A stretch of DNA of 64,000 bases from NCBI GenBank assembly GCA_030530485.1, contig JAUMUX010000002.1, positions 1-64,000 of the forward strand. Direction: 5' to 3'. Both the position numbers and the translations under genes were made by a program. Below the pieces are notes generated by a model. The model saw only the letters and a program-made list of their open reading frames with translations. It had not been told where the DNA came from and searched no databases. Numbering within the stretch: the first letter of the stretch is position 1; every line of letters starts with the position of its first letter. This DNA comes from a bacterium. Its GTDB lineage: Bacteria; Patescibacteriota; Saccharimonadia; Saccharimonadales; Saccharimonadaceae. This document shows positions 1,024 through 64,000 of this stretch, piece by piece.

Positions 1024-1041
1024 CTTTTCTCCTTAAAATTT

Positions 1042-1060
1042 AAAAGGGGCTTTCGCCCCG
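1042..1060 (-). terminator. Terminator after the 27-aa peptide gene
   Basis: Stem GGGGC (1046-1050) pairs with GCCCC (1055-1059) around a 4-nt loop, and on the minus strand it runs into TTTT. It separates the small peptide gene from the metallopeptidase-like gene. Confidence 0.7.
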
Positions 1061-1110
1061 AGCATAGAAAGAATTTCAGCTTTCAAGTTTCTCTGTTTTA
1101 TACAGCTATT

Positions 1111-1194
1111 TTATTTTCCGCGATTTCCGTTGCGTGGTCCAGTTCCGCCGGAATTATCCTTAGGTCCTGTTCCTCCTGCTGTATTTTTAGACAT
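1111..1194 (-). CDS. 27-aa Gly/Asn-rich microprotein
   Basis: A short frame coding 27 residues with two GGTGP repeats and a basic end (GPRNGNRGK). It lies between a perfect promoter (TTGACA at 1344-1349, 17-bp spacer, TATAAT at 1321-1326, minus strand) and a terminator (1042-1060), leaving a leader of about 120 nt. The Shine-Dalgarno site is weak (GGAAGG about 13 nt before ATG), so translation is not certain and the transcript could instead be a non-coding RNA of about 270 nt. The C-terminus resembles that of the 91-aa protein at 15191-15466 (GRNGDRGAYK). No family recognised. The strong promoter implies abundant expression. Confidence 0.45.
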   Translation of the reverse strand: MSKNTAGGTGPKDNSGGTGPRNGNRGK

Positions 1195-1320
1195 AGCAAG
1201 CTACCAACCTTCCATAAAAATTCAAATGAACTCTGATAAACATGTAGCTTTCTGTGTTTTATTTCACAACAATACCAGAAAACTACGCCAAGCACCTATC
1301 AGTATTGCTTAGTTCTTTAT

Positions 1321-1349
1321 ATTATATTAAACAATAGCGGTAATGTCAA
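1321..1349 (-). promoter_or_regulatory. Consensus promoter of the 27-aa peptide gene
   Basis: Minus strand TTGACA (1344-1349), exactly 17 bp, TATAAT (1321-1326). Both boxes match the sigma-70 consensus. The predicted start is near 1314. Confidence 0.75.
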
Positions 1350-1405: not shown

Positions 1406-2116
1406 TTAATCTAACTTGGCGTTGGTGTGCACGTTTACCACGTCATCAACGTCATCGAGCGCGTCCATCAGTTTTTCAACCTTCGCCCGCGTTTCGTCAT
1501 CGGTGATTTCAACTTCCATATTTGGCACATACTGAAGCTCGGCTTCTTTCACGCTCAAACCTTTTTCAAGCAAATTAGCGCGAACTTTCATCAAATCTTT
1601 TTGGTCGGTATAAACCACCATTTCGCCATCTTCTTCAACCGCATCCTCTGCGCCAGCATCCAGGATTTCAAGCAAAGCGTCTTCGCCAGTCGCCTCAACC
1701 AAAATCACACCTTTGCGCGCAAATTGAAACATCACACTTCCTGCGTCAGCGATTCGCCCGCCGTTCTTCACCAAAGCAGTTTTCACTTCGGGCAAAGTTC
1801 GGTTGCGGTTGTCAGTTGCGGTTTCGATAATCAAGCCAATTCCATTTGGACCATAGCCTTCGTAAACAATTTCTTCAAGTGTAGCGGCATTTTTGTCGGC
1901 TGCGCGAGCAATCGCACGTTCGATATTCGCATTCGGCATATTCACCGCGCGCGCTTTTTCAATCGCCAGCGCCAAACTTGGGTTCATATCTGGGTCGGCG
2001 CCGCCACGTGCCGCAATCGCGATTTGATTTCCGATTCGCGTAAAAATCGCGCCTCGTTTCGCATCATTTACGCCTTTCTGTCGTTTAATTTTTGACCATT
2101 TATTATGACCAGCCAT
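1406..2116 (-). CDS. yebC: YebC/PmpR-family (TACO1-like) regulator
   Basis: 236 residues, the usual family length. It begins with the family signature MAGHNKWSKIKRQKG, followed by the conserved GGADPDMNP and the YEGYGPNGIG region near residue 85. The C-terminal half has the acidic domain (EDAVEEDGE) typical of the fold. Members act as transcription regulators or as translation factors that relieve stalling at proline-rich stretches. RBS AAAGGAG lies 4 nt before ATG. Promoter: TTGCTA (2179-2184), 17 bp, TACAAT (2156-2161), with an upstream TG. It is transcribed alone, ending at the hairpin at 1374-1395. Confidence 0.95.
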   Translation of the reverse strand: MAGHNKWSKIKRQKGVNDAKRGAIFTRIGNQIAIAARGGADPDMNPSLALAIEKARAVNMPNANIERAIARAADKNAATLEEIVYEGYGPNGIGLIIETATDNRNRTLPEVKTALVKNGGRIADAGSVMFQFARKGVILVEATGEDALLEILDAGAEDAVEEDGEMVVYTDQKDLMKVRANLLEKGLSVKEAELQYVPNMEVEITDDETRAKVEKLMDALDDVDDVVNVHTNAKLD

Positions 2117-2184: not shown

Positions 2185-2257
2185 ATTAAACCGAACCCTT
2201 AGTAGACTCGTTTTGGATTTTACCCGAATAAAATGATGACTGCGGGTTTACGGTGTT

Positions 2258-2286
2258 TTGACTTTTGTGTTCAGGTGTGTTAAAAT
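2258..2286 (+). promoter_or_regulatory. Promoter of small RNA
   Basis: TTGACT (2258-2263), exactly 17 bp, TAAAAT (2281-2286). It points rightwards into a stretch without any plausible reading frame, ending at a terminator at 2377-2409. Confidence 0.7.
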
Positions 2287-2292
2287 AGCGAT

Positions 2293-2406
2293 GAACTGTT
2301 ATAAATCGACAGTTCAAATAGGTTAGTGTAAAGTTTAATAATCCTTCTAAGTGTGGATTTTAAACATTTACGTTTTGCGTCAACTGTCATTGGTTGGCGC
2401 TTTTTC
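2293..2406 (+). ncRNA. Structured small RNA, about 115 nt, unknown class
   Basis: The RNA is bounded by the promoter at 2258-2286 and an intrinsic terminator. Three hairpins can be drawn. First, GAACTGT (2293-2299) with ACAGTTC (2309-2315). Second, a long stem where GTAAA-GTTTAA (2328-2338) and ATCC (2341-2344) pair with GGAT (2355-2358), TTAAAC (2360-2365) and TTTAC (2367-2371). Third, GCGTCAAC (2377-2384) with GTTGGCGC (2393-2400), one G-T pair, followed by TTTTT. The single-stranded link 2316-2327 contains AAATAGGTTAGT. It lacks the GGAA apical loop of SRP RNA, the large bubble of 6S RNA, and tRNA-like ends of tmRNA. It lies convergent with lepA and divergent from yebC. Confidence 0.7.
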
Positions 2407-2409
2407 TTT
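2377..2409 (+). terminator. Terminator of small RNA
   Basis: An 8-bp stem (2377-2384 with 2393-2400) with an 8-nt loop, followed by TTTTTCTTT. Confidence 0.75.
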
Positions 2410-2432
2410 AGAAAAAATCAGGCAAAAGAAAA

Positions 2433-2454
2433 AAGAGGCTTTCGAAAACCTCTT
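2433..2454 (-). terminator. lepA operon terminator
   Basis: Stem AAGAGG/CCTCTT closing a loop containing TTTCGAAA, with a T-rich tract after it on the minus strand. It starts directly behind the stop codon of the lepA C-terminal cistron and faces the small-RNA terminator. Confidence 0.75.
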
Positions 2455-3681
2455 TTAGTCTCGCTTCAGCATTACCGTGAAAGCTTCGCTCGGAATTTCC
2501 ACATTGCCAAATTTTTTCATTCGCTTTTTACCGCGTTTCTGTTTAGCGAGGAGCTTTTTCTTGCGTGAAACGTCGCCACCGTAAAGATAGCCGGTTACAT
2601 CTTTACGATAAGCCGAAATATTCTCGCGCGCGATGAACTTTCCGCCAATCGCTGCCTGAATCGCCACCTGAAAATTCTGCCGCGGAATCACTTCTTTCAA
2701 TTTTGCCGTAATTTCGCGCCCCATTCGCACGCTCTCCGAACGGTGGCACATCACCGAAAGCGCATCCACCATTTCGCCCGCAACATAAAAATCCACGCGC
2801 ACCAAATCTTCTGCCAGATAATCCCAAAGTTCATAGTTAAACGAACCGTAGCCAGAAGTCACGCTTTTTAGCTGGTCGTAAAAATCAGTTAGCAGGTTCG
2901 CCAGCGGCGCTTCGAAAGAAATCAAAACGCGCTCGTCGATATAACTCAAATTTTTCTGCAAACCCCTTTTCGAAACAATCAGCTGAATCACCGCCCCGAC
3001 AAATTCTTGCGGAACCACAATTTCGCCTTTAATCCACGGCTCGCGGATTTCAGCAATTTTAGTTTGGTCAGGCAAATCCGCCGCACTTTTAATATCCAAT
3101 TCTTCACCAGTAGTCAAAAAAACGTGATAATCGGTTGAAGGATTGGTAATCACCAAATCTAAATCATATTCGCGCTCCAAACGCTCGCGCACAATATCCA
3201 TATGCAGAAGCCCGAGGAAGCCAATCCGCACGCCAAAACCTAAAACGGGCGAATTTTCTGGCTCGAATTGAAGTGCCGAATCACTCAAACTCAGCTTTTC
3301 GACCGCATCTTTCAAATCCTGATAATCCTCGTTCGAAACAGGGAAAAATCCCGCATAAACAAACGGCTGAACTTCCTTGTAGCCCGGCAAAGGCTCCGTG
3401 GCGGGAGTTTTCGCCAACGTGACGGTATCGCCAACTTTCGCCTCGCGCGTGGTTTTTAAATTGGTCACGATATAGCCGATTTCGCCTGCACTCATTTTTT
3501 CGAAAGAAGTCATTTTGGGCTGAAGTTTACCAATTTCGAGCGCCAAGCCTTTCGAATCTGTCGCCATCATTTTAATTTCATCGCCTTTTTTTAGTTCGCC
3601 CGAAAAAATCCGCACATATAAAATCACGCCGCGGTAATCGTCATAATAACTATCAAAAATCAAAGCTTTTAGCGGCTTCAT
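2455..3681 (-). CDS. lepA: Elongation factor 4 (LepA), C-terminal part as separate cistron
   Basis: 408 residues covering LepA from domain 2 to the end: PLKALIFDS at the start, the translation-factor beta-barrel, EF-G-like domains III and V (VLGFGVRIGFLGLLHMDIV), and the LepA-specific C-terminal domain with the conserved GGDVSRKKKLLAKQKRGKKRMK stretch (22 residues at about 370-391, basic). There is no GTPase domain: that is encoded by the gene directly upstream, in the same frame, separated by a single TAA. The start ATG (3681-3679) follows that TAA at once and has an ideal AAAGGAGG five nt before TTTAA-ATG spacing. LepA back-translocates or remodels ribosomes. The two proteins together are 591 residues, close to a normal LepA of about 600. 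Confidence 0.85.
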   Translation of the reverse strand: MKPLKALIFDSYYDDYRGVILYVRIFSGELKKGDEIKMMATDSKGLALEIGKLQPKMTSFEKMSAGEIGYIVTNLKTTREAKVGDTVTLAKTPATEPLPGYKEVQPFVYAGFFPVSNEDYQDLKDAVEKLSLSDSALQFEPENSPVLGFGVRIGFLGLLHMDIVRERLEREYDLDLVITNPSTDYHVFLTTGEELDIKSAADLPDQTKIAEIREPWIKGEIVVPQEFVGAVIQLIVSKRGLQKNLSYIDERVLISFEAPLANLLTDFYDQLKSVTSGYGSFNYELWDYLAEDLVRVDFYVAGEMVDALSVMCHRSESVRMGREITAKLKEVIPRQNFQVAIQAAIGGKFIARENISAYRKDVTGYLYGGDVSRKKKLLAKQKRGKKRMKKFGNVEIPSEAFTVMLKRD

Positions 3682-4233
3682 TTAAACCTCCTTTGGCGCA
3701 GGAATTCGCGCTACCACCGCATCTAAAACCTGCTCCACATTCATACCCGTTTTGGCAGAAATGCCGATAATTTCGCTTTCGTCGCAACCCAAAAGATTGA
3801 TAACTTGCTTCGAAACGCGCGGAATATCCGCCGCGGGCAAATCGACCTTATTTAAAACTGGAATGATTCGCAAATCCTGCTCCATTGCCAAATAAACATT
3901 GGCGAGCGTTTGCGCCTGAATGCCCTGCGAAGCGTCGACCACCAAAATCGCCCCTTCACAAGCTTGCAACGAACGCGAAACTTCATAAGAAAAATCCACG
4001 TGCCCTGGCGTATCAATCAAATTTAGCTCAACGCCTTGCCAATTCATCGTCACTGGTGCGAGCTTAATCGTAATGCCTTTTTCGCGCTCCAAATCCATCG
4101 AATCCAAAAGTTGCGACTTCATATCGCGCCGCTGCACCGTCCCCGTAATTTCCATCATACGGTCGGCCAAAGTTGATTTTCCGTGGTCGATATGCGCAAT
4201 AATACAAAAATTTCTAATCTTTTCTAAATCCAT
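3682..4233 (-). CDS. lepA: Elongation factor 4 (LepA), GTPase domain as separate cistron
   Basis: 183 residues forming just the G domain: G1 AHIDHGKST, switch region [10 protein letters not shown]3 DTPGHVDF, G4 [10 protein letters not shown]5 GISAKTG. It stops at RIPAPKEV, exactly where intact LepA passes into domain 2 (…IPxPxGDPxxPLxAL). The start at 4233 was chosen over an upstream ATG at 4272 because [21 protein letters not shown] matches the family and because a promoter (TTGCGA 4267-4272, 17 bp, TATAAT 4244-4249) would start transcription about 4 nt before this ATG, giving a nearly leaderless mRNA. The stop codon TAA is not a reassigned codon in any known bacterial code. Confidence 0.85.
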
Positions 4234-4243
4234 ACTACTGTAA

Positions 4244-4272
4244 ATTATACCAAGAAAATGCCTTTGTCGCAA
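4244..4272 (-). promoter_or_regulatory. lepA promoter, near-leaderless
   Basis: Minus strand TTGCGA, 17-bp spacer, TATAAT; the ATG follows 10 nt after the -10 box, so the leader is about 3-4 nt and has no room for a Shine-Dalgarno site. Confidence 0.7.
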
Positions 4273-46930: not shown

Positions 46931-48349
46931 TTATTTAGCTCCTCGGCGAAAAAGCACACTCGCCACGGTTTTGAAAAGAATCTGAATATCCAAAAGAATC
47001 GACCAGTTTTGCACATAATAAACGTCCAGTCGGCGGCGCTCTTCAAAGCTAATATCGCGCCGTCCAGAAACCTGAGCCAAACCCGTCACGCCCGATTTAA
47101 CCGCCAAAATAATATCCTTCTTTTTGTGCTGATTGATTTCTTGCGGAATCAGCGCACGCGGACCGACCAGCGAAATATCACCCCGAACCACATTGAAGAG
47201 CTGCGGCAATTCGTCAATCGAAGAAGCGCGCAAAAATTTGCCGATTTTTGTCACACGTGGGTCGTCTTTGAGCTGGTCGCCGTTTTGGCGGTAGATTTTC
47301 GAAAGTTCAGGCTTGCCCATTTTTTCGAAAGCCTCTTCAGGCGTTAAGCCATCGAATTCCGCCTTTTGCGAACGGAATTTATAGATGTAAAATTCCCGAT
47401 TAAAGCGGGTTAAACGCACTTGACGAAAGAAAATCGATTCGCGCGGTGCGGTGATTTTCATCAAAATCGCCACCAAAATCATCACTGGGCTGGCTAAAAT
47501 TAAGCCCAAAACGCCCAAAATCAAATCCATTGCTCGCTTGTAAAATTGCCCAATGCCAAAAAGTTTAGTAACTTTAATATCAATTATCGGCAAACCACCC
47601 ACGATTTCAACCGTATTTAACTGCGAAAGCAAGCGGTCTTGCTGCGGCACAAACATATACGAAATATGCTTTTCAATCGCAAAATTATAAATTTCTTCGC
47701 TTCGAAGATTGTCGGTGTGAATAATAATTTCGGGTTTAGTTTTCGAAATCGCTTCTTTAAAACTGGCAAAATGGCGCGGGCAATCTTTTTTTGGCAAAAA
47801 TTCTGGCTTCGAAACCATCCCGATTAAATCGTATCCATAATCAATATTATTGATGAAAAATTCCGCCAGCTCGGTTGAGCGTGAATTACTACCCACCAGC
47901 AAAACTTTGTTTCGCCCAATACCGCCACGAAGCAACATTCGGTTTAAAATTCGCACCAATTCGCGACCAGCAATCATCGTCATAAAGTTGATAATCACAA
48001 AATAAACTGGAATAATTCGCGCTGGAAAAACTTGCTCATCGGCAAAATAACCAAAGGTGATTAGCGCCATAATGGTGATAATCGAAGCGATAAAAACGCG
48101 CCCATATTCGCGCGGGCGATAGAGATAAATTGCGCGGTCATAGAGCCCGGAAATCCGATTCACCACCAGCCAAATCGGCACAAAAGAAATCGCCATAATC
48201 AAAAAGTTAATCGTATGTGCTTCGAAATAAAATAGTCGGCTGTCGAAATTGATTCGAAAATAATAAGCCAAAAATAATGAAAAAACTACCGCCAAGACAT
48301 CTGTGATAATCATTGCGATTCGCAAGAAAAATGATTTATCGTATTTCAT
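46931..48349 (-). CDS. Polyprenyl-phosphate sugar-1-phosphate transferase (WbaP/WcaJ-like)
   Basis: 472 residues. Four N-terminal membrane helices (about 10-125), a nucleotide-binding-like region (KVLLVGSNSRSTELAEFF), a fifth helix, and the catalytic domain with FRQVRLTRFNREFYIYKFRS, LRASSIDELPQLFNVVRGDISLVGPR and SGRRDISFEERRRLDVYY. It starts the glycan by putting the first sugar phosphate on undecaprenyl phosphate. Leaderless promoter TTGCAC (48379-48384), 17 bp, TAAAAT (48356-48361), 6 nt before ATG. The first 134 codons and this promoter are repeated at 57269 onward; this copy is the intact one. Confidence 0.95.
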   Translation of the reverse strand: MKYDKSFFLRIAMIITDVLAVVFSLFLAYYFRINFDSRLFYFEAHTINFLIMAISFVPIWLVVNRISGLYDRAIYLYRPREYGRVFIASIITIMALITFGYFADEQVFPARIIPVYFVIINFMTMIAGRELVRILNRMLLRGGIGRNKVLLVGSNSRSTELAEFFINNIDYGYDLIGMVSKPEFLPKKDCPRHFASFKEAISKTKPEIIIHTDNLRSEEIYNFAIEKHISYMFVPQQDRLLSQLNTVEIVGGLPIIDIKVTKLFGIGQFYKRAMDLILGVLGLILASPVMILVAILMKITAPRESIFFRQVRLTRFNREFYIYKFRSQKAEFDGLTPEEAFEKMGKPELSKIYRQNGDQLKDDPRVTKIGKFLRASSIDELPQLFNVVRGDISLVGPRALIPQEINQHKKKDIILAVKSGVTGLAQVSGRRDISFEERRRLDVYYVQNWSILLDIQILFKTVASVLFRRGAK

Positions 48350-48469
48350 GATTATATTTTAACAAGAAAAAGCTACTGGTGCAAGGTGGAATAATAAACT
48401 GTCCAAAATAGCTAATTATTTCGTAAAATGTTATAATAAATCCACAGCCAAAATGCTGAAAGGAAATCA

Positions 48470-49066
48470 ATGGAAAAGGAAATTAAGCTTGAATATGGCG
48501 GAATTGCTCAAAGCATCGCCCCTATGGGAATTGTGATGGCGTGTTTTTCGCTTGTTTATTCAATTTGGTTTGGTTTCGCCTGGGGAGAAATCGGCTGGCT
48601 GGTTTTTACAGTAATCATTCTCTGTAATTTTTATATCGTTGTAAAAAGTATAAAAAATATCCAGCACGCAAATCAATTCGAAGCTCATGAAACCGCAGAT
48701 GGGCTGCGAATCACCAAACAGATGGGAATATTGAGCGGAACCAGCTATTCCGTTATTTGGATTTTAGTTTTCATATTATTCTTTTCTAAACAAGAAAGGA
48801 TTATTTTCCCGATGGTAACTTTGATTATTGGCTTACATTTTCTGCCGCAAGCCAAAATTATGCGGCGAAAAATCGATTATTTCGTGGCACCTTTTCCGAT
48901 ATTTTCTGCAGGTTTAGCTCTTTATCTGGCTTTTAATAGCGATATAAATTGGATTTTTCTTGGTGCAGTCGCTGGAATTGGCGGCTCAATCGCTACAACT
49001 ATTTACGGTTTTTATTTATTAGCTGTTTACAAAAAGATTGCAAATAAATTTAATATTCCTTATTAA
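48470..49066 (+). CDS. Unknown six-helix membrane protein
   Basis: 198 residues with six predicted helices in pairs (about 16-32, 40-60, 90-110, 116-130, 140-158, 162-185). Between helices 2 and 3 there is a soluble piece (NIQHANQFEAHETADGLRITKQ). A TATAAT box and AAAGGA before ATG are present. It is transcribed opposite to the glycan genes around it. No family recognised; no active-site pattern obvious. Confidence 0.8.
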   Translation: MEKEIKLEYGGIAQSIAPMGIVMACFSLVYSIWFGFAWGEIGWLVFTVIILCNFYIVVKSIKNIQHANQFEAHETADGLRITKQMGILSGTSYSVIWILVFILFFSKQERIIFPMVTLIIGLHFLPQAKIMRRKIDYFVAPFPIFSAGLALYLAFNSDINWIFLGAVAGIGGSIATTIYGFYLLAVYKKIANKFNIPY

Positions 49067-49098
49067 AATAAAACGCACTCAATAAAGAGCGCGTCAGA

Positions 49099-49974
49099 TT
49101 ATTTGAGCAGGCGCAGCAAATACTTACCATACTCATTTTTACAAAGAGGCTCTGCCAGCTTTTCCAGCTTTTCTTTCGAAATCCAGCCTTTTCGAAAGGC
49201 GATTTCTTCGAGATTCGCCACCTGAACATTTTGCAGACGCTGCACGGTTTCGATATATTGCGAAGCTTCGAGCAGACTTTCATGCGTGCCCGTATCCAGC
49301 CAAGCAAAACCGCGACCAAGCAATTCAACCGACAAGTTATTTTGCTCCAGATAAGCTTTATTCACATCGGTAATTTCCAATTCACCGCGCGGACTTGGTT
49401 TAATATTTTTGGCAATTTCTACAACTTTATTATTGTAGAAATACAAGCCTGTCGCCGCGTAATTCGAGCGAGGATACTCTGGCTTTTCTTCAACCGAAAT
49501 CGCATTCATATCCTCGTCAAATTCAATCACGCCAAAGCGCTCTGGGTCTTTGACTTGGTAGCCAAAAATTACCGCTCCAGCTTTTTTGCGCTCGATTTTA
49601 GTGCGAGCGCTCCGCAGCTTATCGGTAAATCCCTGTCCGTGGAAGACATTGTCTCCCAGAATCAAAGCCACATTGTCATCACCGATAAATTCCTCACCGA
49701 TGATAAAGGCCTGCGCCAATCCGTCGGGACTCGGCTGCTCCGCATAAGAAAGCTCAATTCCAAATTCAGAACCGTCTTGGAGCAATTCTTTAAAGCGTGG
49801 CAAATCCTGCGGCGTAGAAATAATCAAAATTTCACGAACACCCGCCAGCATAAGCGTCGAAAGCGGATAATAAATCATCGGCTTGTCGTAAATCGGCATA
49901 AGCTGCTTGGAAGCAGCGCGAGTTAGCGGATACAGACGTGTGCCCGACCCGCCCGCAAGAATGATTCCTTTCAT
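49099..49974 (-). CDS. rmlA: Glucose-1-phosphate thymidylyltransferase (RmlA)
   Basis: 291 residues, standard length. Nucleotidyltransferase motif [38 protein letters not shown] and the substrate region [19 protein letters not shown], ending in [13 protein letters not shown]. It makes dTDP-glucose, the first step to dTDP-rhamnose and related sugars. rmlBCD are not in the window. Extended -10 TG-A-TATAAT near 50023-50028 and AAGGAGG 7 nt before ATG. Confidence 0.96.
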
Positions 49975-50067
49975 TTTGGAACCTCCTTATAAAATTACTA
50001 ATAGTTAAACTATCGTTTTTTAATTATATCATAAAAAACGAATATTTTCAATTATTATAACATAATC

Positions 50068-51063
50068 CTAATGTTTAATTTTGAGCAAATCTTTAATTCG
50101 ATTTACTTGCTTTAGTGGCAAACCGTGGTATAAAATGCTTGAAATATACTGGTTCGAAACAGCTTTCGAAGCTTGAATTCGACGGCGCTTTTTGAGCGAT
50201 TTCGGCATTAAAACTAAACTCTGCCCCAAACCTTTTAGCGCAAATTTTAGTCCGCCTTTTGGAATTTGATAGAAAATAAACGCCGTATAAACCAACATAA
50301 ATTTTGGCAACATCCACCAAATCATCGGCGAAGGCACATTTTTCCAAAAAACTTGCGGTAAATTTTTGAAAACTTGATTGATAGTGAAACCTGGGATTTT
50401 CGAACTCGTTGCTGAATGTTTATGCCAAACTACTGCCGATTTTTCATACCAAACCTTAAATCCCGCCAGTTGCATTCGCCAATCAATATCGACATCTTCG
50501 TTGTAAGCGAAAAAATCTTCGTCGAAAAAGCCAATCGTTTCGAAAACCTTCGCGCGGTAAAGTGTGGCGCCACCCGTAGCACCAAAAACCAGCCCGCTTT
50601 CTGGCGCGTTAGCTTTTGGTCCGTTTTCGTTGCGTAACATCGGAATGCCCCAAGTTGAATAAACATCGCCCGCATCATCAATCAATTCGCCAGTTTTATC
50701 CAGCATTAAACTGGTTACCGCACCAATTTCTGGCGATTTTTCGAGCGGCTTCAATAAATTTTCCAGCCATTCAGGCTCAGCATTCGCGTCATTATTTAAC
50801 AAAACGATATTTTCGAAATTATTTTCGAGCGCCCATTTGATACCAATATTCACGCCACCAGTAAAGCCCGTATTCTTTTTTTCTTTTCGAAAATGCAGAT
50901 TCGGTATTTCGATTTTCGAAAGTTCTTCAATCGAATTATCCTGCGAACCGTTATCAATCAAATAAATTTCGAAATCTTGAACCGTCTGTTTCGAAAGCGC
51001 CGCTAAGCATTTTTTGGTGTCTCGCCAACCGTTATAATTTAAAATTACGATTGCCGTTTTCAT
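50068..51063 (-). CDS. GT2 glycosyltransferase (rhamnosyltransferase-like)
   Basis: 331 residues. GT-A fold with AIVILNYNGWRDTKKCL, the donor DxD region VLLNNDANAEPEWL, GATGGATLYRAKVFETIGFFDEDFFAYNEDVDIDWRMQLAGF (positions about 180-221, with the catalytic Glu-Asp), then a C-terminal amphipathic or membrane segment around 250-270. The pattern suits WbbL-type dTDP-rhamnosyltransferases, in line with nearby rmlA. It overlaps the preceding GT2 gene by 4 nt (ATGA). Confidence 0.92.
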   Translation of the reverse strand: MKTAIVILNYNGWRDTKKCLAALSKQTVQDFEIYLIDNGSQDNSIEELSKIEIPNLHFRKEKKNTGFTGGVNIGIKWALENNFENIVLLNNDANAEPEWLENLLKPLEKSPEIGAVTSLMLDKTGELIDDAGDVYSTWGIPMLRNENGPKANAPESGLVFGATGGATLYRAKVFETIGFFDEDFFAYNEDVDIDWRMQLAGFKVWYEKSAVVWHKHSATSSKIPGFTINQVFKNLPQVFWKNVPSPMIWWMLPKFMLVYTAFIFYQIPKGGLKFALKGLGQSLVLMPKSLKKRRRIQASKAVSNQYISSILYHGLPLKQVNRIKDLLKIKH

Positions 51064-51983
51064 TTTTTATTGCTTAAAAGGTTGTTTAGGTTGATTTCAA
51101 ATAATTGGCGGTGTTTTTTGGCGATTAAGCTCGACAACAGCCCCGTGATAATCATTAGCACCGAAATCGCAAAAAAGACCAATCCAACCACCAAACTTGG
51201 CATATAAGTTACCATTCCTGTGGCGAAAAATTCAATCACCGCGCGACCCGCCAAAATTGCGGAAGCCACGAAAGAAATTCCGCTCAAAATACCATAAACC
51301 AACCGCGGTTTAAATTCGCGTAGCATATTAAAAATCGTCAAAAGAACCTTGAAGCCGTCTGAATAAGTGCTCAATTTTGATTCGCTGCCTTCTGGCCTAT
51401 CTCGATAACTGACTGGGATTTCATGAATTCGCATCATTTTGTCCAGCGCGTGAATCGTCATTTCCGTTTCAACCTGAAAGCCTTCGCTCAAAACCGGAAA
51501 AGTTTTAACAAATCCATACGAAAATACTCGCTGACCCGTCATAATATCTTTAACTTCAGATTTAAACAGCCAGTTGATAAGATTACGCACTAATTTATTG
51601 CCAAAATTATGCCCGAAACGGTCGTTTTCGGTGAAATAAGTTGAGCTTAAACGGTCGCCAATCAGCATATCAGATTGATTCTCGATAGCGAAATCAATCA
51701 TTCGGCGCGAATCTTCCGCTGGATAAGTGTCGTCGCCATCAATCATTAAGTAATAATCAGCGTCAATATCACGAAACATCGAGCGAATCACATTTCCTTT
51801 ACCTTGTCGATTTTCGAATCGCACAATCGCACCATTTTTCTTGGCGATTTTGGCGGTATCGTCGGTTGAATTATTGTCGTAAACGTAAATATCTGCTTCA
51901 GGAATCAGTTTTTTGTGGTCTTTTACCACTTTACCAATCGTTTTTTCCTCGTTATAACATGGTATCAAAATAGCAATCTTCAT
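51060..51983 (-). CDS. GT2 polyprenyl-phosphate sugar transferase (DPM-like)
   Basis: 307 residues. Catalytic domain with AILIPCYNEEKTIGKVV, VYDNNSTDDTAKIA, YYLMIDGDDTYPAED (DxD) and ISYRDRPEGSESKL-like VSYRDRPEGSESKLS, then two membrane helices (about 237-257 and 263-288). It probably makes a lipid-linked sugar for a GT-C enzyme; the YfhO-like protein encoded 7 nt upstream is a natural user. Confidence 0.93.
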   Translation of the reverse strand: MKIAILIPCYNEEKTIGKVVKDHKKLIPEADIYVYDNNSTDDTAKIAKKNGAIVRFENRQGKGNVIRSMFRDIDADYYLMIDGDDTYPAEDSRRMIDFAIENQSDMLIGDRLSSTYFTENDRFGHNFGNKLVRNLINWLFKSEVKDIMTGQRVFSYGFVKTFPVLSEGFQVETEMTIHALDKMMRIHEIPVSYRDRPEGSESKLSTYSDGFKVLLTIFNMLREFKPRLVYGILSGISFVASAILAGRAVIEFFATGMVTYMPSLVVGLVFFAISVLMIITGLLSSLIAKKHRQLFEINLNNLLSNKK

Positions 51984-51990
51984 AATTAAA

Positions 51991-54261
51991 TTATACTTTC
52001 TTTCCTTTAAATGTCAAATTAGCGTAAAGCTGATGAATAATAATTCCCAGCCAAGCCGTAATCGATAAAATCATCACTGGCGTGAGATATTTTGGCCAAA
52101 AAGTGAACTTAACTTTTGACTTGCCAGCGGGCAGATTTACAGCTTGGAAAATATCATTTTTTTGCGTTATCTCGGTTTGAGCGCCATTCACCTCAGCGCG
52201 CCAACCATCGAAATACAATTCCAGCCTTTCCAGAGTTGTGGGCTTTTCGCAATCAGCCGAAATTTCATCACGGCTAACAACCTCAATCTTACAACCTTCC
52301 GCCGTAAAATAGTTTTTATAATCTGGAATTTGGTAAATGATTGTGTTGTTTTTTTCGCTCGAATAAACAATCTTCGCGCCCCGTTTCGTCATCTGCTCTC
52401 GGCTAACCGCAAATTCACCCTTAATTTCACTAACCAAATATTTTACGCCAACCGATTTGAATTTTTCGATATTTTTATAAAACTCGGTTTCAGCTGGGTC
52501 GCGCAACCAATCTTCTCGATGAGCGCCCGAAAAACTAATTGTATCGGTGTTGTTGTCGAGATTTTCTTTCACAAAGTCATCCCAAGCCAGCGGTGTTGGT
52601 AAGTTTTCGTTATTGATTGAAGAAATGCCAAAATACGAAGCATAGTTAGTTTTCAAACCATATTTACCGCCGATATAATAAAATCTCTGATTACCGATAT
52701 TCTCTTGCAAAAATTCCACGGCAGAAGTATCAACTTTAGCTTTCGAACGGATTGGCGCGGCTAATTGCGGCAACCAAAACGAGCCGAGCGTTTCGAAAAT
52801 CGCAATTACTGCGAAAATTAGCGCGAATCTCTTTCGAACTCTTTTCGAAAAAGCCAGCCAGCTCGCCAAAGCAAGCAAAATTAAGGATAAAATCACGTAA
52901 AAAAGGTAATATTTATTCACGCCGCTTTTGTCTGTAAAATTCTCTTCAATAAAAAGCCGCGCAATCACTAATCCACCAGCGATAAAAATCAGGCTAATTA
53001 TAACTGGCAAAAAAGCAGTTTTTGATTTTTTCGCAAGTTGGTTTTTCTGCAAGCAATATTCTAAACCAAAGCAAGCTAAAACGATTACCGAAAGTATCAA
53101 AACTGGTGGCAAATATCTAAACGCCGCCGCCGAACTCATCAACGGTAAAATATCCACGATATGCGTAATTACTGGCACCGCCGCAATTCGCGCTGCCGCA
53201 AGTAGCGCCGCCAGGGAGAAAAATAGCCTAATTTTAAGCTTTATTTGCGAATTAAAAGCACCAAAGCCCGCCAAAATCATCGCGGTTAAGCCGATAAATC
53301 CGCCCAATTGACCCCATACGCGCGAAGTAATTTCTGGATTCTGAAAAATCAAGCCATAAATATACGGGAAAATCAACATCGGCAAAGTTTCACTTTTCGC
53401 TCCCTTATGCAAGAAAGAACCGTCGTGCCCACCAATGTGCGCCCCACTTTGAAGATAATGTAAGAAAAGATAAATCGCGGGTAGCGAAAGAATAATCCCT
53501 AAAATTCCCGCCACCAAAACGTGAATGATATATTTCTTTATTTTTTTGCGGTCGTTTTTCATTTCAAAAGCGCTGAAAACAAACCACGCAAACACCAAAA
53601 GGCCGTTCAAGTAAGCCGTTTCTGGAAATCCCGCGTTTATCGAAAAAGCTAAGCTGATGGCGAAAATTGCATAACCACTTTTTCGCCGATTCGAAACATC
53701 TTCTTTGATTTTTTCGAGGCCAAAAAGTATCCACGGGAAAAAAGCAATTGGGTTAAAAATAGCGTTACCTAAAATCGCAAAAGTGCCGTTCAGCGCAAAT
53801 AAAATTCCACCAAAAATCGCCAAATTATTGCGAATTTTTAGTTTGCGCAAAAATAGGAACATTCCTACGCCCGCAACAAATTCTAAAACTATCCGAAAAA
53901 TCAAAAATCCGTTCGGTAAAGCCAGTAACAAATTAAACGGCAAAAATAGCGAGGCTGGTTGCATTCCGCCCGCCAGTGGTGCGCCAACTCCTTCGTGATG
54001 ATTCCAAAGGGGCAATTTTCCGCTCAAAATTTGATTAACCGAAGCCACGCCCAAAGCCTGCGAAACCGCACCATCATTCACCTCAGTTCCGTTGTAATTA
54101 CCCAGAATTGTCTCTTTCCAAACTCCCAAACCAGAGCGCGTAATCAGCGGGTCGGGGTTTGTCAAGAAAATATTGATAAAATTCCCAGCCAAAACAAAAG
54201 CCAGAATAATCAAAACCCCTCTAAAACATTCATTTGCCCAAAAAAGTCTCTTTTTTTCCAT
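51991..54261 (-). CDS. YfhO-like multi-pass membrane protein (putative GT-C)
   Basis: 756 residues. About 13 helices fill the first 520 residues, with an early external loop (about 35-95: SRSGLGVWKETILGNYNG-like ITRSGLGVWKETILGNYNG). Residues about 525-725 form an external beta domain (STDARF-type sequence absent; contains FYYIGGKYGLKTNYASYFG and LELYFDGWRAEVNGAQTEI), then a last helix and a basic end. YfhO proteins add sugars from polyprenyl phosphate to surface polymers. Followed after 7 nt by the DPM-like gene that may supply its donor. Confidence 0.88.
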   Translation of the reverse strand: MEKKRLFWANECFRGVLIILAFVLAGNFINIFLTNPDPLITRSGLGVWKETILGNYNGTEVNDGAVSQALGVASVNQILSGKLPLWNHHEGVGAPLAGGMQPASLFLPFNLLLALPNGFLIFRIVLEFVAGVGMFLFLRKLKIRNNLAIFGGILFALNGTFAILGNAIFNPIAFFPWILFGLEKIKEDVSNRRKSGYAIFAISLAFSINAGFPETAYLNGLLVFAWFVFSAFEMKNDRKKIKKYIIHVLVAGILGIILSLPAIYLFLHYLQSGAHIGGHDGSFLHKGAKSETLPMLIFPYIYGLIFQNPEITSRVWGQLGGFIGLTAMILAGFGAFNSQIKLKIRLFFSLAALLAAARIAAVPVITHIVDILPLMSSAAAFRYLPPVLILSVIVLACFGLEYCLQKNQLAKKSKTAFLPVIISLIFIAGGLVIARLFIEENFTDKSGVNKYYLFYVILSLILLALASWLAFSKRVRKRFALIFAVIAIFETLGSFWLPQLAAPIRSKAKVDTSAVEFLQENIGNQRFYYIGGKYGLKTNYASYFGISSINNENLPTPLAWDDFVKENLDNNTDTISFSGAHREDWLRDPAETEFYKNIEKFKSVGVKYLVSEIKGEFAVSREQMTKRGAKIVYSSEKNNTIIYQIPDYKNYFTAEGCKIEVVSRDEISADCEKPTTLERLELYFDGWRAEVNGAQTEITQKNDIFQAVNLPAGKSKVKFTFWPKYLTPVMILSITAWLGIIIHQLYANLTFKGKKV

Positions 54262-54327
54262 ATTTTCATTTTACTATACTTATTTGAAAGGTTCAATATT
54301 TAATAAGTTTCTATCTGGCAGAAGATG

Positions 54328-54336
54328 TGTTATAAT
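54328..54336 (+). promoter_or_regulatory. Extended -10 promoter, leaderless
   Basis: TG-T-TATAAT, 7 nt before ATG 54344. The -35 region (TTTCTA at 17 bp) is weak, as often with an extended -10. Repeated at 63651-63659. Confidence 0.6.
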
Positions 54337-54343
54337 TATGTGT

Positions 54344-55162
54344 ATGAAACAGCTTGATATATCAGTAATCATCCCTTTCAAGGACCATTCAAAAATGACA
54401 ATCGCCTGTCTTGAATCCTTGAAAAAAATCAACTTAAAAGAGATTTTATTGGTCGATAACGGTTCGAAAAAAGAAACCATCGATGAAATCAAGAATTATC
54501 TCAAAGATTTTTCGAAAACAGTTAAATTACTTAATTACCCTTTTAAATTTAATTATCAAAAAATCAATAACTGGGCAGCAAATCAAGCAAAAGGCAAGGT
54601 ACTTTGGCTCTTGAATAATGACGTTGAGGCTCAAAATCCTGAGTTGATTGAAGCGATGTATCAGCAAGCTCAACAAAAAGATGCTGGCGCAACGGGCTGC
54701 GTGTTGCTTTATGAAGACGGCAAAACCATTCAGCACGCTGGCGTTTATTTGGTTCCTGGCCAAACCGCCGACCATCTTTATATTCGAAAAAAGGTTTCGA
54801 AACTCCTCGCAGCCGAAAATCTTCCTTACGATTTTCGAAAAAATCTCGATTTAGCGGCGGTTACGGCAGCTTCGCTAATGGTTAAAAAATCAAAATTCGA
54901 AAAAATCGGTGGTTTCAATGAAGATTTCATTATCACTGGTGGCGACGTTGATTTATGCCTTCGCCTTGCCGAAAAGGGCTGGGGTACAAAATTAATCGGT
55001 TTCGAAAAAGGTTTTATGCTACACAAAGAATCGATTTCGCGTTCTCATTTGGGAATTCCGTATGTTGATTTTATCGAAAGCTACAAGATTTATTCGAAGC
55101 ATTTCAATACCGAAAACGGCGATGGATTTATTGATATAAGAAAGTTGAAAGGATTTTTATAA
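54344..55162 (+). CDS. GT2 glycosyltransferase
   Basis: 272 residues. GT-A core with DISVIIPFKDHSKMTIACL, ILLVDNGSKKETI, LWLLNNDVEAQNPELI (DxD region), GGFNEDFIITGGDVDLCLRLAEKGW. It extends the surface glycan. ATG 54344 follows from the leaderless promoter; a much longer frame opening at 54173 would begin inside the divergent YfhO gene and is not credible. An ATG six nt earlier (54338) is a possible alternative. First gene of a four-gene operon. Confidence 0.9.
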   Translation: MKQLDISVIIPFKDHSKMTIACLESLKKINLKEILLVDNGSKKETIDEIKNYLKDFSKTVKLLNYPFKFNYQKINNWAANQAKGKVLWLLNNDVEAQNPELIEAMYQQAQQKDAGATGCVLLYEDGKTIQHAGVYLVPGQTADHLYIRKKVSKLLAAENLPYDFRKNLDLAAVTAASLMVKKSKFEKIGGFNEDFIITGGDVDLCLRLAEKGWGTKLIGFEKGFMLHKESISRSHLGIPYVDFIESYKIYSKHFNTENGDGFIDIRKLKGFL

Positions 55163-55163
55163 A

Positions 55164-56477
55164 ATGAGAAAAACTACTTTGCGCGCGATTCGCAAAACCA
55201 GCCACATTACCAAAAATATTGGACTTCGAGGTGTTAATTTTCTGGGAAAAGTTGAAAATAAAGCCACTTTTCTTATCAATAATGGTATTTTGAACGATTC
55301 GGTAAAGGTTGACGATGTTTTTTATGCCAAATATCCGCACCTAACACCAATCTATCCATCTCTGCCAGAACTTGGGCAAAAACCTTCGGTGACCGTTTTC
55401 GCTTTTCTTCATCCTGCTGGATTTTTTGGCGGAATTGCTACGCTTCTTTTCACTGCCGCTAAATTAGCCAACGAGCTCAACTACGATTTACGCGTGGTGC
55501 AAACTACTGGCTATAGCGATAAAGTTGATGTTGTTAAATTCCTCAACGAAAATGGCATTGAATTTTCGAAAGAACGCTATTCGACACTCAACCTTTCGAA
55601 TCGCAGCAATTACAACTACGGTTATTTACCACTCCACGAAGACGATGTTGTGATGGTGAGCGCTTGGTGGGACGCGCGCATTGCTTCAGAATTGCCGCTC
55701 AAAAATAAATTCGTTTATTTGATTCAAGATTTTGAGCCAATTTTTTACAACAACAGCGATGCTTTCACTCTTTCGGACGAAACCTATCGCACTGAAAAAT
55801 TCTTGCCAATTACCAATACCGAGATTCTACTCGAATACTTCAAGAAAAATAAGTATACTTATATTTCGAAAAACGCGGTATTTTTCGAACCAGCACCTTC
55901 GCCAAATGTTAAATTGAAGAAGTTTTCGAAAACTAAAAAATCGAAAAAAATCTTCCTTTATGGTCGCCCAAATGTTGACCGAAATATGTTCTACACTGCG
56001 ATTAAAGCGCTGGATTTGGCGGTTAATGACGAACGCTTGGCTGATTACAATATCGAGATTTACAGCGCAGGTTCGGCGGAAGTGCCAAATATTGAGCTTT
56101 CGAATGGTTCGAAAATCAAAAATCAAGGCAAAATGCCGCTCGACGAATATTACAAATTCGTGCAAACTGTTGATGTGGCGGTTTCGCCAATGTTGGCGCC
56201 ACACCCAAATTATCCAACTCTCGAATTTTCAAGCGTTGGCGCAACCGTCGTAACCACCAAATGGGAAACCAAACAAAATCTCGACCGCTATTCGAAAAAT
56301 ATCTTTATGTGCGAACCAACCATTTCTGATATGGCGGATAAAATCGTGCAGGCGATAATCAAGCCAGTTGATGAAGTCAAAAAAGACGCTCAAGAAAATA
56401 ATCTCAATAAAGATTGGAATGTTGCCTTGAACGAACCAATCAAAAAATTAGCTAAAAAGCTCCAAATTAAAAAATAA
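55164..56477 (+). CDS. GT4 glycosyltransferase (WsaF/rhamnan-type)
   Basis: 437 residues. N-terminal part with VFAFLHPAGFFGGIATLLF and YLIQDFEPIFYNNSDAF; the latter D-FEP motif is typical of WsaF-like rhamnosyltransferases. The C-terminal donor domain has KIFLYGRPNVDRNMFYTAIKAL and VAVSPMLAPHPNYPTLEFSSVGATVVTT. With RmlA and the WbbL-like GT2 this points to a rhamnose-containing polymer. GAAAGGA lies before the start, one base after the previous stop. Confidence 0.9.
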   Translation: MRKTTLRAIRKTSHITKNIGLRGVNFLGKVENKATFLINNGILNDSVKVDDVFYAKYPHLTPIYPSLPELGQKPSVTVFAFLHPAGFFGGIATLLFTAAKLANELNYDLRVVQTTGYSDKVDVVKFLNENGIEFSKERYSTLNLSNRSNYNYGYLPLHEDDVVMVSAWWDARIASELPLKNKFVYLIQDFEPIFYNNSDAFTLSDETYRTEKFLPITNTEILLEYFKKNKYTYISKNAVFFEPAPSPNVKLKKFSKTKKSKKIFLYGRPNVDRNMFYTAIKALDLAVNDERLADYNIEIYSAGSAEVPNIELSNGSKIKNQGKMPLDEYYKFVQTVDVAVSPMLAPHPNYPTLEFSSVGATVVTTKWETKQNLDRYSKNIFMCEPTISDMADKIVQAIIKPVDEVKKDAQENNLNKDWNVALNEPIKKLAKKLQIKK

Positions 56478-56491
56478 AGCTTAATCAAACC

Positions 56492-56539
56492 TATGCGCTA
56501 TCTGGAAGTTTGACTTTTAGATAGCGCATATGTTAAAAT
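56492..56539 (+). promoter_or_regulatory. Promoter inside a perfect 12-bp inverted repeat
   Basis: TATGCGCTATCT (56492-56503) is repeated inverted as AGATAGCGCATA (56519-56530). The -35 box TTGACT (56510-56515) lies in the loop and the right arm fills the 18-bp spacer before TG-T-TAAAAT (56534-56539). As RNA it could be a terminator-like stem for the upstream gene, but no T-run follows; as DNA it is a good operator. Confidence 0.6.
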
Positions 56540-56555
56540 ATTTTTGAGGTAATTT

Positions 56556-57128
56556 ATGAAAACAAAAAACAAAAAAAATAACAAAACTAAAATTATTATT
56601 ATATCTGCCGCAGTTTTAATTGTGGCGATTTTTAGTGGTGCATATTTCTTTTTTTGGAATAATCATCAATCAACCGAAAATAAAATTTCATCTTCAAACG
56701 AGCAGAAAACTGAAAATTCCACCAAAGAAGAAAAAACCGAAAAGCCTGCCGAAAACTCACCTTCGCAAACCAAAACAACCCAAACTAATTCCGACAAACC
56801 AAACGCGCCAACTTTAGACCAATCGGTCAATAAATATCGCGTGGGTATTTCAACATCAGTCGACCAAGATAATACAAACGAGATTGTCATTCGCGGCTTA
56901 ATCAGCTTATCAATCGAAAGCGGCAATTGCGATGTGATTCTCACCAGCCCATCTGGGAATACTCAAACCAAAAAAACCGAAATCTTAATGTCGCCAACAA
57001 CATCAAGCTGCAAAACCCTCAGCTTACCGAAAAATAGCCTCGAAAAAGGTCTTTGGAAATATAAAATTAAATATGAAACTTCTGAAATTATAGGAGAATC
57101 GAATGAAAATACTTTCGAAATCAAATAA
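56556..57128 (+). CDS. Unknown membrane-anchored protein with Glu/Lys/Thr linker
   Basis: 190 residues. Basic start (KTKNKKNNKTK), membrane helix at about 14-34, then a 50-residue linker of Glu, Lys, Thr, Ser and Asn, and an external beta-rich domain (about 88-190) with two Cys (SGNCDVILTS and TSSCKTLSL) likely in a disulfide, consistent with the DsbA-like enzyme. RBS GAGG before ATG. It overlaps the next gene by 26 nt. No family recognised. Confidence 0.8.
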   Translation: MKTKNKKNNKTKIIIISAAVLIVAIFSGAYFFFWNNHQSTENKISSSNEQKTENSTKEEKTEKPAENSPSQTKTTQTNSDKPNAPTLDQSVNKYRVGISTSVDQDNTNEIVIRGLISLSIESGNCDVILTSPSGNTQTKKTEILMSPTTSSCKTLSLPKNSLEKGLWKYKIKYETSEIIGESNENTFEIK

Positions 57129-57387
57129 AACTCTCAAGTTTTTTGCTTTAGTTCTGACGATTGGCGTTTTAGGTTTTAGTGTGGTTAAATTAATCGAAAA
57201 TGCCAAGGCGATTAAAGCTACTGATTTCGATGCGGGTCGAATTATTGATGACGAAATTTTCTACAATAAAAATTCGCACCAATTCGCGACCAGCAATCAT
57301 CGTCATAAAGTTGATAATCACAAAATAAACTGGAATAATTCGCGCTGGAAAAACTTGCTCATCGGCAAAATAACCAAAGGTGATTAG
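57103..57387 (+). pseudogene. 5-prime end of a secreted-protein gene, cut by the duplication junction
   Basis: From ATG 57103 (RBS ATAGGAG) the first 55 codons give a signal peptide-like helix (about 12-30, FFALVLTIGVLGFSVVKLI) and DFDAGRIIDDEIFYN. At 57268/57269 the sequence switches to the antisense of the sugar transferase gene, so the remaining 39 codons are meaningless read-through. The full gene should follow the second unit, beyond the window. FDxGxIIxDxxFYN is, from memory, a start seen in secreted wall-associated proteins of related bacteria. Confidence 0.75.
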
Positions 57388-57672
57388 CGCCATAATGGTG
57401 ATAATCGAAGCGATAAAAACGCGCCCATATTCGCGCGGGCGATAGAGATAAATTGCGCGGTCATAGAGCCCGGAAATCCGATTCACCACCAGCCAAATCG
57501 GCACAAAAGAAATCGCCATAATCAAAAAGTTAATCGTATGTGCTTCGAAATAAAATAGTCGGCTGTCGAAATTGATTCGAAAATAATAAGCCAAAAATAA
57601 TGAAAAAACTACCGCCAAGACATCTGTGATAATCATTGCGATTCGCAAGAAAAATGATTTATCGTATTTCAT
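57190..57672 (-). pseudogene. Truncated second copy of the sugar transferase gene
   Basis: The first 134 residues are identical to the enzyme at 46931-48349 and contain only its four membrane helices. After LVRI the frame enters unit 1 sequence and adds 26 unrelated residues before stopping at 57190. The catalytic domain is missing, so it cannot transfer sugars, but the promoter is duplicated and the fragment could be made as a membrane peptide. Confidence 0.85.
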
Positions 57673-57792
57673 GATTATATTTTAACAAGAAAAAGCTACT
57701 GGTGCAAGGTGGAATAATAAACTGTCCAAAATAGCTAATTATTTCGTAAAATGTTATAATAAATCCACAGCCAAAATGCTGAAAGGAAATCA

Positions 57793-58389
57793 ATGGAAAA
57801 GGAAATTAAGCTTGAATATGGCGGAATTGCTCAAAGCATCGCCCCTATGGGAATTGTGATGGCGTGTTTTTCGCTTGTTTATTCAATTTGGTTTGGTTTC
57901 GCCTGGGGAGAAATCGGCTGGCTGGTTTTTACAGTAATCATTCTCTGTAATTTTTATATCGTTGTAAAAAGTATAAAAAATATCCAGCACGCAAATCAAT
58001 TCGAAGCTCATGAAACCGCAGATGGGCTGCGAATCACCAAACAGATGGGAATATTGAGCGGAACCAGCTATTCCGTTATTTGGATTTTAGTTTTCATATT
58101 ATTCTTTTCTAAACAAGAAAGGATTATTTTCCCGATGGTAACTTTGATTATTGGCTTACATTTTCTGCCGCAAGCCAAAATTATGCGGCGAAAAATCGAT
58201 TATTTCGTGGCACCTTTTCCGATATTTTCTGCAGGTTTAGCTCTTTATCTGGCTTTTAATAGCGATATAAATTGGATTTTTCTTGGTGCAGTCGCTGGAA
58301 TTGGCGGCTCAATCGCTACAACTATTTACGGTTTTTATTTATTAGCTGTTTACAAAAAGATTGCAAATAAATTTAATATTCCTTATTAA
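57793..58389 (+). CDS. Unknown six-helix membrane protein, second copy
   Basis: Identical to the 198-residue protein at 48470-49066, with the same promoter and RBS. See that entry for topology. Confidence 0.8.
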   Translation: MEKEIKLEYGGIAQSIAPMGIVMACFSLVYSIWFGFAWGEIGWLVFTVIILCNFYIVVKSIKNIQHANQFEAHETADGLRITKQMGILSGTSYSVIWILVFILFFSKQERIIFPMVTLIIGLHFLPQAKIMRRKIDYFVAPFPIFSAGLALYLAFNSDINWIFLGAVAGIGGSIATTIYGFYLLAVYKKIANKFNIPY

Positions 58390-58421
58390 AATAAAACGCA
58401 CTCAATAAAGAGCGCGTCAGA

Positions 58422-59297
58422 TTATTTGAGCAGGCGCAGCAAATACTTACCATACTCATTTTTACAAAGAGGCTCTGCCAGCTTTTCCAGCTTTTCTTTC
58501 GAAATCCAGCCTTTTCGAAAGGCGATTTCTTCGAGATTCGCCACCTGAACATTTTGCAGACGCTGCACGGTTTCGATATATTGCGAAGCTTCGAGCAGAC
58601 TTTCATGCGTGCCCGTATCCAGCCAAGCAAAACCGCGACCAAGCAATTCAACCGACAAGTTATTTTGCTCCAGATAAGCTTTATTCACATCGGTAATTTC
58701 CAATTCACCGCGCGGACTTGGTTTAATATTTTTGGCAATTTCTACAACTTTATTATTGTAGAAATACAAGCCTGTCGCCGCGTAATTCGAGCGAGGATAC
58801 TCTGGCTTTTCTTCAACCGAAATCGCATTCATATCCTCGTCAAATTCAATCACGCCAAAGCGCTCTGGGTCTTTGACTTGGTAGCCAAAAATTACCGCTC
58901 CAGCTTTTTTGCGCTCGATTTTAGTGCGAGCGCTCCGCAGCTTATCGGTAAATCCCTGTCCGTGGAAGACATTGTCTCCCAGAATCAAAGCCACATTGTC
59001 ATCACCGATAAATTCCTCACCGATGATAAAGGCCTGCGCCAATCCGTCGGGACTCGGCTGCTCCGCATAAGAAAGCTCAATTCCAAATTCAGAACCGTCT
59101 TGGAGCAATTCTTTAAAGCGTGGCAAATCCTGCGGCGTAGAAATAATCAAAATTTCACGAACACCCGCCAGCATAAGCGTCGAAAGCGGATAATAAATCA
59201 TCGGCTTGTCGTAAATCGGCATAAGCTGCTTGGAAGCAGCGCGAGTTAGCGGATACAGACGTGTGCCCGACCCGCCCGCAAGAATGATTCCTTTCAT
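58422..59297 (-). CDS. rmlA: RmlA, second copy
   Basis: Identical 291-residue glucose-1-phosphate thymidylyltransferase with its own copied promoter, so dTDP-glucose capacity may be doubled if the duplication is real. Confidence 0.94.
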
Positions 59298-59390
59298 TTT
59301 GGAACCTCCTTATAAAATTACTAATAGTTAAACTATCGTTTTTTAATTATATCATAAAAAACGAATATTTTCAATTATTATAACATAATC

Positions 59391-60386
59391 CTAATGTTTA
59401 ATTTTGAGCAAATCTTTAATTCGATTTACTTGCTTTAGTGGCAAACCGTGGTATAAAATGCTTGAAATATACTGGTTCGAAACAGCTTTCGAAGCTTGAA
59501 TTCGACGGCGCTTTTTGAGCGATTTCGGCATTAAAACTAAACTCTGCCCCAAACCTTTTAGCGCAAATTTTAGTCCGCCTTTTGGAATTTGATAGAAAAT
59601 AAACGCCGTATAAACCAACATAAATTTTGGCAACATCCACCAAATCATCGGCGAAGGCACATTTTTCCAAAAAACTTGCGGTAAATTTTTGAAAACTTGA
59701 TTGATAGTGAAACCTGGGATTTTCGAACTCGTTGCTGAATGTTTATGCCAAACTACTGCCGATTTTTCATACCAAACCTTAAATCCCGCCAGTTGCATTC
59801 GCCAATCAATATCGACATCTTCGTTGTAAGCGAAAAAATCTTCGTCGAAAAAGCCAATCGTTTCGAAAACCTTCGCGCGGTAAAGTGTGGCGCCACCCGT
59901 AGCACCAAAAACCAGCCCGCTTTCTGGCGCGTTAGCTTTTGGTCCGTTTTCGTTGCGTAACATCGGAATGCCCCAAGTTGAATAAACATCGCCCGCATCA
60001 TCAATCAATTCGCCAGTTTTATCCAGCATTAAACTGGTTACCGCACCAATTTCTGGCGATTTTTCGAGCGGCTTCAATAAATTTTCCAGCCATTCAGGCT
60101 CAGCATTCGCGTCATTATTTAACAAAACGATATTTTCGAAATTATTTTCGAGCGCCCATTTGATACCAATATTCACGCCACCAGTAAAGCCCGTATTCTT
60201 TTTTTCTTTTCGAAAATGCAGATTCGGTATTTCGATTTTCGAAAGTTCTTCAATCGAATTATCCTGCGAACCGTTATCAATCAAATAAATTTCGAAATCT
60301 TGAACCGTCTGTTTCGAAAGCGCCGCTAAGCATTTTTTGGTGTCTCGCCAACCGTTATAATTTAAAATTACGATTGCCGTTTTCAT
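59391..60386 (-). CDS. GT2 glycosyltransferase (rhamnosyltransferase-like), second copy
   Basis: Identical to 50068-51063, with the same 4-nt overlap with the gene before it. Confidence 0.92.
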   Translation of the reverse strand: MKTAIVILNYNGWRDTKKCLAALSKQTVQDFEIYLIDNGSQDNSIEELSKIEIPNLHFRKEKKNTGFTGGVNIGIKWALENNFENIVLLNNDANAEPEWLENLLKPLEKSPEIGAVTSLMLDKTGELIDDAGDVYSTWGIPMLRNENGPKANAPESGLVFGATGGATLYRAKVFETIGFFDEDFFAYNEDVDIDWRMQLAGFKVWYEKSAVVWHKHSATSSKIPGFTINQVFKNLPQVFWKNVPSPMIWWMLPKFMLVYTAFIFYQIPKGGLKFALKGLGQSLVLMPKSLKKRRRIQASKAVSNQYISSILYHGLPLKQVNRIKDLLKIKH

Positions 60387-61306: not shown

Positions 61307-61313
61307 AATTAAA

Positions 61314-63584: not shown

Positions 63585-63666
63585 ATTTTCATTTTACTAT
63601 ACTTATTTGAAAGGTTCAATATTTAATAAGTTTCTATCTGGCAGAAGATGTGTTATAATTATGTGT

Positions 63667-64000
63667 ATGAAACAGCTTGATATATCAGTAATCATCCCTT
63701 TCAAGGACCATTCAAAAATGACAATCGCCTGTCTTGAATCCTTGAAAAAAATCAACTTAAAAGAGATTTTATTGGTCGATAACGGTTCGAAAAAAGAAAC
63801 CATCGATGAAATCAAGAATTATCTCAAAGATTTTTCGAAAACAGTTAAATTACTTAATTACCCTTTTAAATTTAATTATCAAAAAATCAATAACTGGGCA
63901 GCAAATCAAGCAAAAGGCAAGGTACTTTGGCTCTTGAATAATGACGTTGAGGCTCAAAATCCTGAGTTGATTGAAGCGATGTATCAGCAAGCTCAACAAA
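63667..64000 (+). CDS. GT2 glycosyltransferase, second copy (cut by window edge)
   Basis: The first 111 codons of the gene at 54344-55162, with the same extended -10 box (63651-63659) 7 nt before ATG. The rest lies beyond the window. Confidence 0.9.
   Translation, partial: MKQLDISVIIPFKDHSKMTIACLESLKKINLKEILLVDNGSKKETIDEIKNYLKDFSKTVKLLNYPFKFNYQKINNWAANQAKGKVLWLLNNDVEAQNPELIEAMYQQAQQ

Follow-up and report, generated by a model that had tools for sequence, protein, structure and literature searches.

Does the gap between yebC and lepA in this Saccharibacteria genome hold a gene for a small RNA, and, if it does, does that RNA belong to a conserved family? The gap is 338 bp long and lies in the window, the 64,000-nucleotide stretch that we analyzed at the start of contig C2 of the 656-kb genome (G000). 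An earlier note on this DNA had described a new structured small RNA here, at 2258-2409. That unit is on the + strand and both flanking genes are on the - strand, and these opposed orientations mean that it is neither a leader nor the 3' UTR of a neighbor. There is also no + strand gene downstream for the RNA to regulate, so that a riboswitch, attenuator or leader could be ruled out.

A promoter, folded RNA and terminator between yebC and lepA

The promoter is present as the earlier note had read it, with its -35 hexamer TTGACT at 2258-2263, its -10 hexamer TAAAAT at 2281-2286 and a spacer of 17 nt, and a TG one base ahead of the -10 adds an extended -10 element. The tRNA-Gln (C1:48994) and tRNA-Glu (C7:167067) genes of the same genome carry identical hexamers, spacer and TG, which makes this sequence credible as a housekeeping promoter. 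Its ranking among the best promoters in the window was generous, since at least four sites score 12/12 and several score 11/12.

Folding of the 119 nt from position 2290 gave -35 kcal/mol and a z score of -5.05, with none of 200 shuffles as good, and the fold without the terminator still had z = -3.97. Where three hairpins had been proposed, including an interrupted stem of about 15 bp, we found two hairpins plus the terminator stem, with 16 to 17 bp in the interrupted stem (Table 1). The 10-bp stem of the terminator (2377-2400) closes a TCAT loop and is followed by a T run, TTTTTCTTT. There is no credible ORF: an 11-codon ATG frame begins at 2292, approximately at the predicted transcript start, and leaves no room upstream for a ribosome-binding site. 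The description of a full transcription unit that lacks a reading frame is therefore upheld. We also considered and rejected an antiterminator pairing of GACAGTT (2308-2314) with AACTGTC (2382-2388), as chance could quite readily produce a 7-mer match over such a length and both of the hairpins that would have to be broken are stronger.

Table 1. Features of the yebC-lepA region (positions in the window)
Feature	Positions	Strand	Remarks
yebC	1406-2116	-	
Extra DNA compared with same-genus G003 and G004	~2185-2454		borders fuzzy; from comparison of gap lengths
Sigma-70-type promoter, TTGACT-N17-TAAAAT, extended -10	2258-2286	+	start predicted near 2293
Predicted small RNA	2293-2406	+	~113 nt, no reading frame
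Hairpin 1 (SL1), 9 bp	2292-2316	+	at predicted 5' end; z = -4.65 alone
Linker AATAGGTTAG, single-stranded	2317-2326	+	unpaired in minimum-energy and centroid structures
Hairpin 2 (SL2), interrupted stem of 16-17 bp, loop region CCTTCTAAGTGT	2327-2372	+	z = -3.80 alone
Intrinsic terminator, 10-bp stem and T run	2377-2409	+	
Terminator-like hairpin at lepA 3' end	2431-2456	-	overlaps lepA stop codon
lepA, 3' part	2455-3681	-	

The arrangement is rare in shuffled DNA. When the complete 338-bp gap was shuffled 2,000 times with its dinucleotides preserved, 10 of the shuffled sequences had such a promoter on either strand, and none had a promoter and terminator in register. The promoter, the terminator, the fold, the lack of an ORF and the absence from relatives described below were computed directly, whereas transcription is what we infer: this is probably a real, transcribed small-RNA gene.

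Several other features of the window were recorded. The lepA (EF4) gene is read in two frames, 2455-3681 and 3682-4272 (-), of about 408 and 196 amino acids, respectively, split near the end of the GTPase domain; a separate C-terminal frame (408-418 amino acids) is also found in G001, G003, G004 and G005, and 11 other relatives have a single frame of about 600 amino acids. On the other side of yebC there is a second insertion, 1029-1349 (-), in a gap of 382 bp here compared to 41 bp in G004. Its promoter, TTGACA-N17-TATAAT, is perfect; a 27-codon frame, MSKNTAGGTGPKDNSGGTGPRNGNRGK, and a terminator are also present, and no counterpart of this unit was found in G004. Farther along, a 9,331-bp tandem repeat of 100% identity (47946-57276 and 57269-64000, running on to C2:66599) spans a polysaccharide-synthesis (glycosyltransferase) cluster and is either an artefact of the assembly or a duplication that took place very recently.

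The unit was found in this lineage only

Searches with blastn of the small-RNA element against 60 relatives, and of a wider query against the genus, returned matches at chance level only. The weak matches at G003:C1:28220 and G000:C7:44555 look like coding sequence that matches the terminator by chance, and one in G028 covers only the promoter, apparently that of a protein gene. A covariance model built from the single sequence matched only itself across 61 genomes and gave nothing convincing elsewhere in its own genome, although the reach of a one-sequence model is limited and a strongly diverged homologue could escape it. No second copy of the small RNA was found within the genome.

The gap itself gives a more direct comparison. 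Two genomes of the same genus, G004 and G003, keep the yebC-lepA pair, with 69 bp and about 84 bp between the genes, respectively, and neither gap contains the unit. Only 3 of the 291 gene pairs that are directly adjacent both here and in G004 are separated by at least 120 bp of additional non-coding DNA in this genome, and the yebC-lepA gap is the longest of these. YebC is 95% identical to its G004 counterpart and 86% identical to that of G003; since G004 is thus the nearer of the two and both are without the segment, its history is most simply explained by gain in this lineage. Orthologues in G004 have a median identity of 75%, so the gain need not be recent. The proposal of a new structured RNA, if a conserved family is meant, is therefore not supported, with no sequence or structural homologue found and the unit absent from the syntenic gaps of G003 and G004. 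The covariance search and gap alignment that the earlier note had suggested as a check point the same way, as far as they go: Rfam was negative, the gaps of these two relatives are without the element, and a single sequence of it is known. With no sign of conservation in the relatives searched, the small RNA is thus, as far as sequence comparison goes, a lineage-specific orphan.

An insertion of this kind could itself be the functional object, an insulator whose hairpins and opposed promoter block read-through from lepA into yebC, with the RNA as a by-product. The inserted segment does hold a strong lepA terminator (2456-2431), a hairpin that we assign by inference to lepA and not to the small RNA, and a unit like this would not fit into the shorter gaps of G003 and G004. 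However, that terminator alone would suffice, leaving two additional hairpins and the opposed promoter to be accounted for, and we consider an insulator improbable.

Comparison with known RNAs and with mobile elements

A search of the element against Rfam 15 found no family at or above its gathering cut-off, and the best sub-threshold matches were far below theirs, in agreement with the earlier statement that the RNA fits no known class. The Rfam scan of the genome recovered tRNAs, rRNA fragments, class A RNase P, tmRNA and one lysM-TM7 motif (RF03005; C1:6925-7052 on the - strand, 83 bits); no other lineage-specific Rfam RNA turned up there. Neither 6S RNA (RF00013) nor the bacterial small SRP RNA (RF00169) had a match in the element or in this genome. 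Like the element, 6S RNA is small and structured and has a housekeeping-type promoter, but it forms one long stem with a central bubble over about 180 nt, in contrast to three separate hairpins over about 113 nt. SRP RNA resembles the element in its size near 100 nt; it differs in forming one hairpin only, the apical part of which is conserved. A diverged housekeeping RNA is unlikely, because such an RNA should not be absent from sister species.

These searches also bear on the two families themselves. No 6S RNA was found above the cut-off in 21 genomes examined. RF00169 had no match at E ≤ 1 in 13 Saccharibacteria genomes, four of which are in one contig with 98 to 99% completeness, and it matched 13 of 14 control genomes; in those 13 genomes SRP RNA has either been lost or become too diverged for the model. 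In the literature collection searched, no paper mentions both Saccharibacteria and SRP RNA.

Among plasmid antisense RNAs, ColE1 RNA I is about 108 nt long and has three stem-loops and a strong promoter. The element, at about 110 nt, shares these features, a likeness that we take as a lead only, and its location in an insertion would also fit an RNA that arrived on a mobile element (a plasmid copy-number antisense RNA of the RNA I type, a small transposable element or an RNA of phage origin) and acting on its original replicon instead of the host. In contrast to RNA I, the element has no plasmid context, no opposing transcript and no Rfam match, and the gap holds neither an opposing primer transcript nor a replication gene. 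No copy of the small RNA was found in phage and plasmid collections or by three pattern scans of viral contigs, and the insertion is without terminal repeats, the sole direct repeat found being 9 nt. Together with the lack of a second genomic copy, these results make a mobile-element RNA quite unlikely.

The closest likeness is to a kind of RNA, not to a homologous family: the intergenic bacterial small RNAs that are transcribed from a sigma-70 promoter of their own and end at an intrinsic terminator. The element is like them in its size of about 110 nt, its hairpins, its lack of an ORF and its restriction to a lineage. It differs in that Hfq was not detected in its genome (93% complete) or in 12 relatives.

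A conserved RNA beside tmRNA and other units of the same design

The same promoter and terminator scan identified a unit outside the window, at C9:49669-49853 (-), convergent with tmRNA (C9:49273-49649). It consists of a promoter, a 5' hairpin, an invariant AACUCCAC that is anti-Shine-Dalgarno-like, and a terminator hairpin. By blastn, it was found in all five genomes of the genus and in 25 of the 61 genomes overall. In an alignment of ten sequences, compensatory changes were seen at 7 of 22 pairs in two stems, and both AACUCCAC and CUCGCAG in the terminator loop were invariant. A covariance model of this RNA (R2) matched 147 of 195 genomes of the class and, by our count, 111 of 114 searched genomes of the family; the matches outside the family are weaker, at about 28 to 60 bits, and need checking because the background in this genome reaches 34 bits. 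No Rfam family reached threshold at this locus. As a possible new family of conserved RNA, the tmRNA-adjacent RNA is a stronger candidate than the 2258-2409 element. The two have in common a 5' hairpin, a single-stranded middle, a terminator hairpin and a similar promoter, but the element is without AACUCCAC and CUCGCAG. A paralogous relationship was rejected, as the element scores 10.3 bits with R2, which is background; 55 places in the genome score at least 14 bits. The tmRNA-adjacent RNA serves as a positive control for the conservation test, and recovery of a conserved RNA elsewhere in the genome by the same test makes the negative result for the element informative.

In all 656 kb, the scan found 24 intergenic promoter and terminator units, 10 of them at tRNA genes. 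Several fold as well as or better than the unit at 2258-2409; a few are ORF-less like it, and some contain small reading frames, such as the unit at C2:79402, which we take to hold a frame for ribosomal protein L34. Several are also non-conserved. One ORF-less unit lies in a lineage-specific non-coding insertion, C5:4169-4396 (+), of 228 bp here compared to 41 bp in G004. Two more, at C7:149652-149786 (+) and C9:34636-34817 (+), have z = -7.3 and -6.9, respectively, and show little or no conservation in G004.

A serious rival explanation is that the unit is transcribed but functionless: inserted DNA, or what is left of it, in which a promoter and a terminator occur by accident and which is tolerated between two genes. 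It would account for a lineage-specific unit with no homologue and no predictable target, and, given the other non-conserved units in the same genome, neutral turnover fits as well. Nevertheless, the promoter, the terminator and two more hairpins are intact and far beyond chance, and the genome is small, with about 9% intergenic DNA. We regard this explanation as less likely than not.

A candidate function for an orphan small RNA

The explanation that we prefer, with a confidence no better than even, is that an independent, lineage-specific orphan small-RNA gene occupies a local insertion, its function being a candidate only. A housekeeping-type promoter, like those of the host tRNA genes, would start transcription near 2293, and the short RNA would fold into two hairpins, with an intrinsic terminator of its own to end it; stability should come from this terminator and the 5' hairpin. 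Leader, riboswitch and UTR roles do not apply to this unit. Any function that the RNA has should be exerted in trans, and the likeliest mode would then be Hfq-independent base pairing with mRNAs. One site for such pairing might be the single-stranded linker, AAUAGGUUAG, and another the hairpin-2 loop region, CCUUCUAAGUGU, which includes the anti-Shine-Dalgarno-like CCUUCU. Duplex energies against the start regions of 666 predicted genes, whose starts are only roughly predicted, were at best equal to those of shuffled segments, and no target can therefore be named. We consider a trans-pairing function speculative and rather doubtful. A broader idea is a long shot: that Saccharibacteria acquire and lose small self-contained units of promoter, folded RNA and terminator, as cassettes placed between conserved genes, with the element as a functional, species-specific regulator in a bacterium with no detectable Hfq.

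A literature search that combined TM7x with small RNAs returned only work on faecal vesicles in dementia, and little seems to have been published on the regulatory RNAs of Saccharibacteria. If the orphan small RNA is indeed reliably transcribed, it would be a small addition to them.
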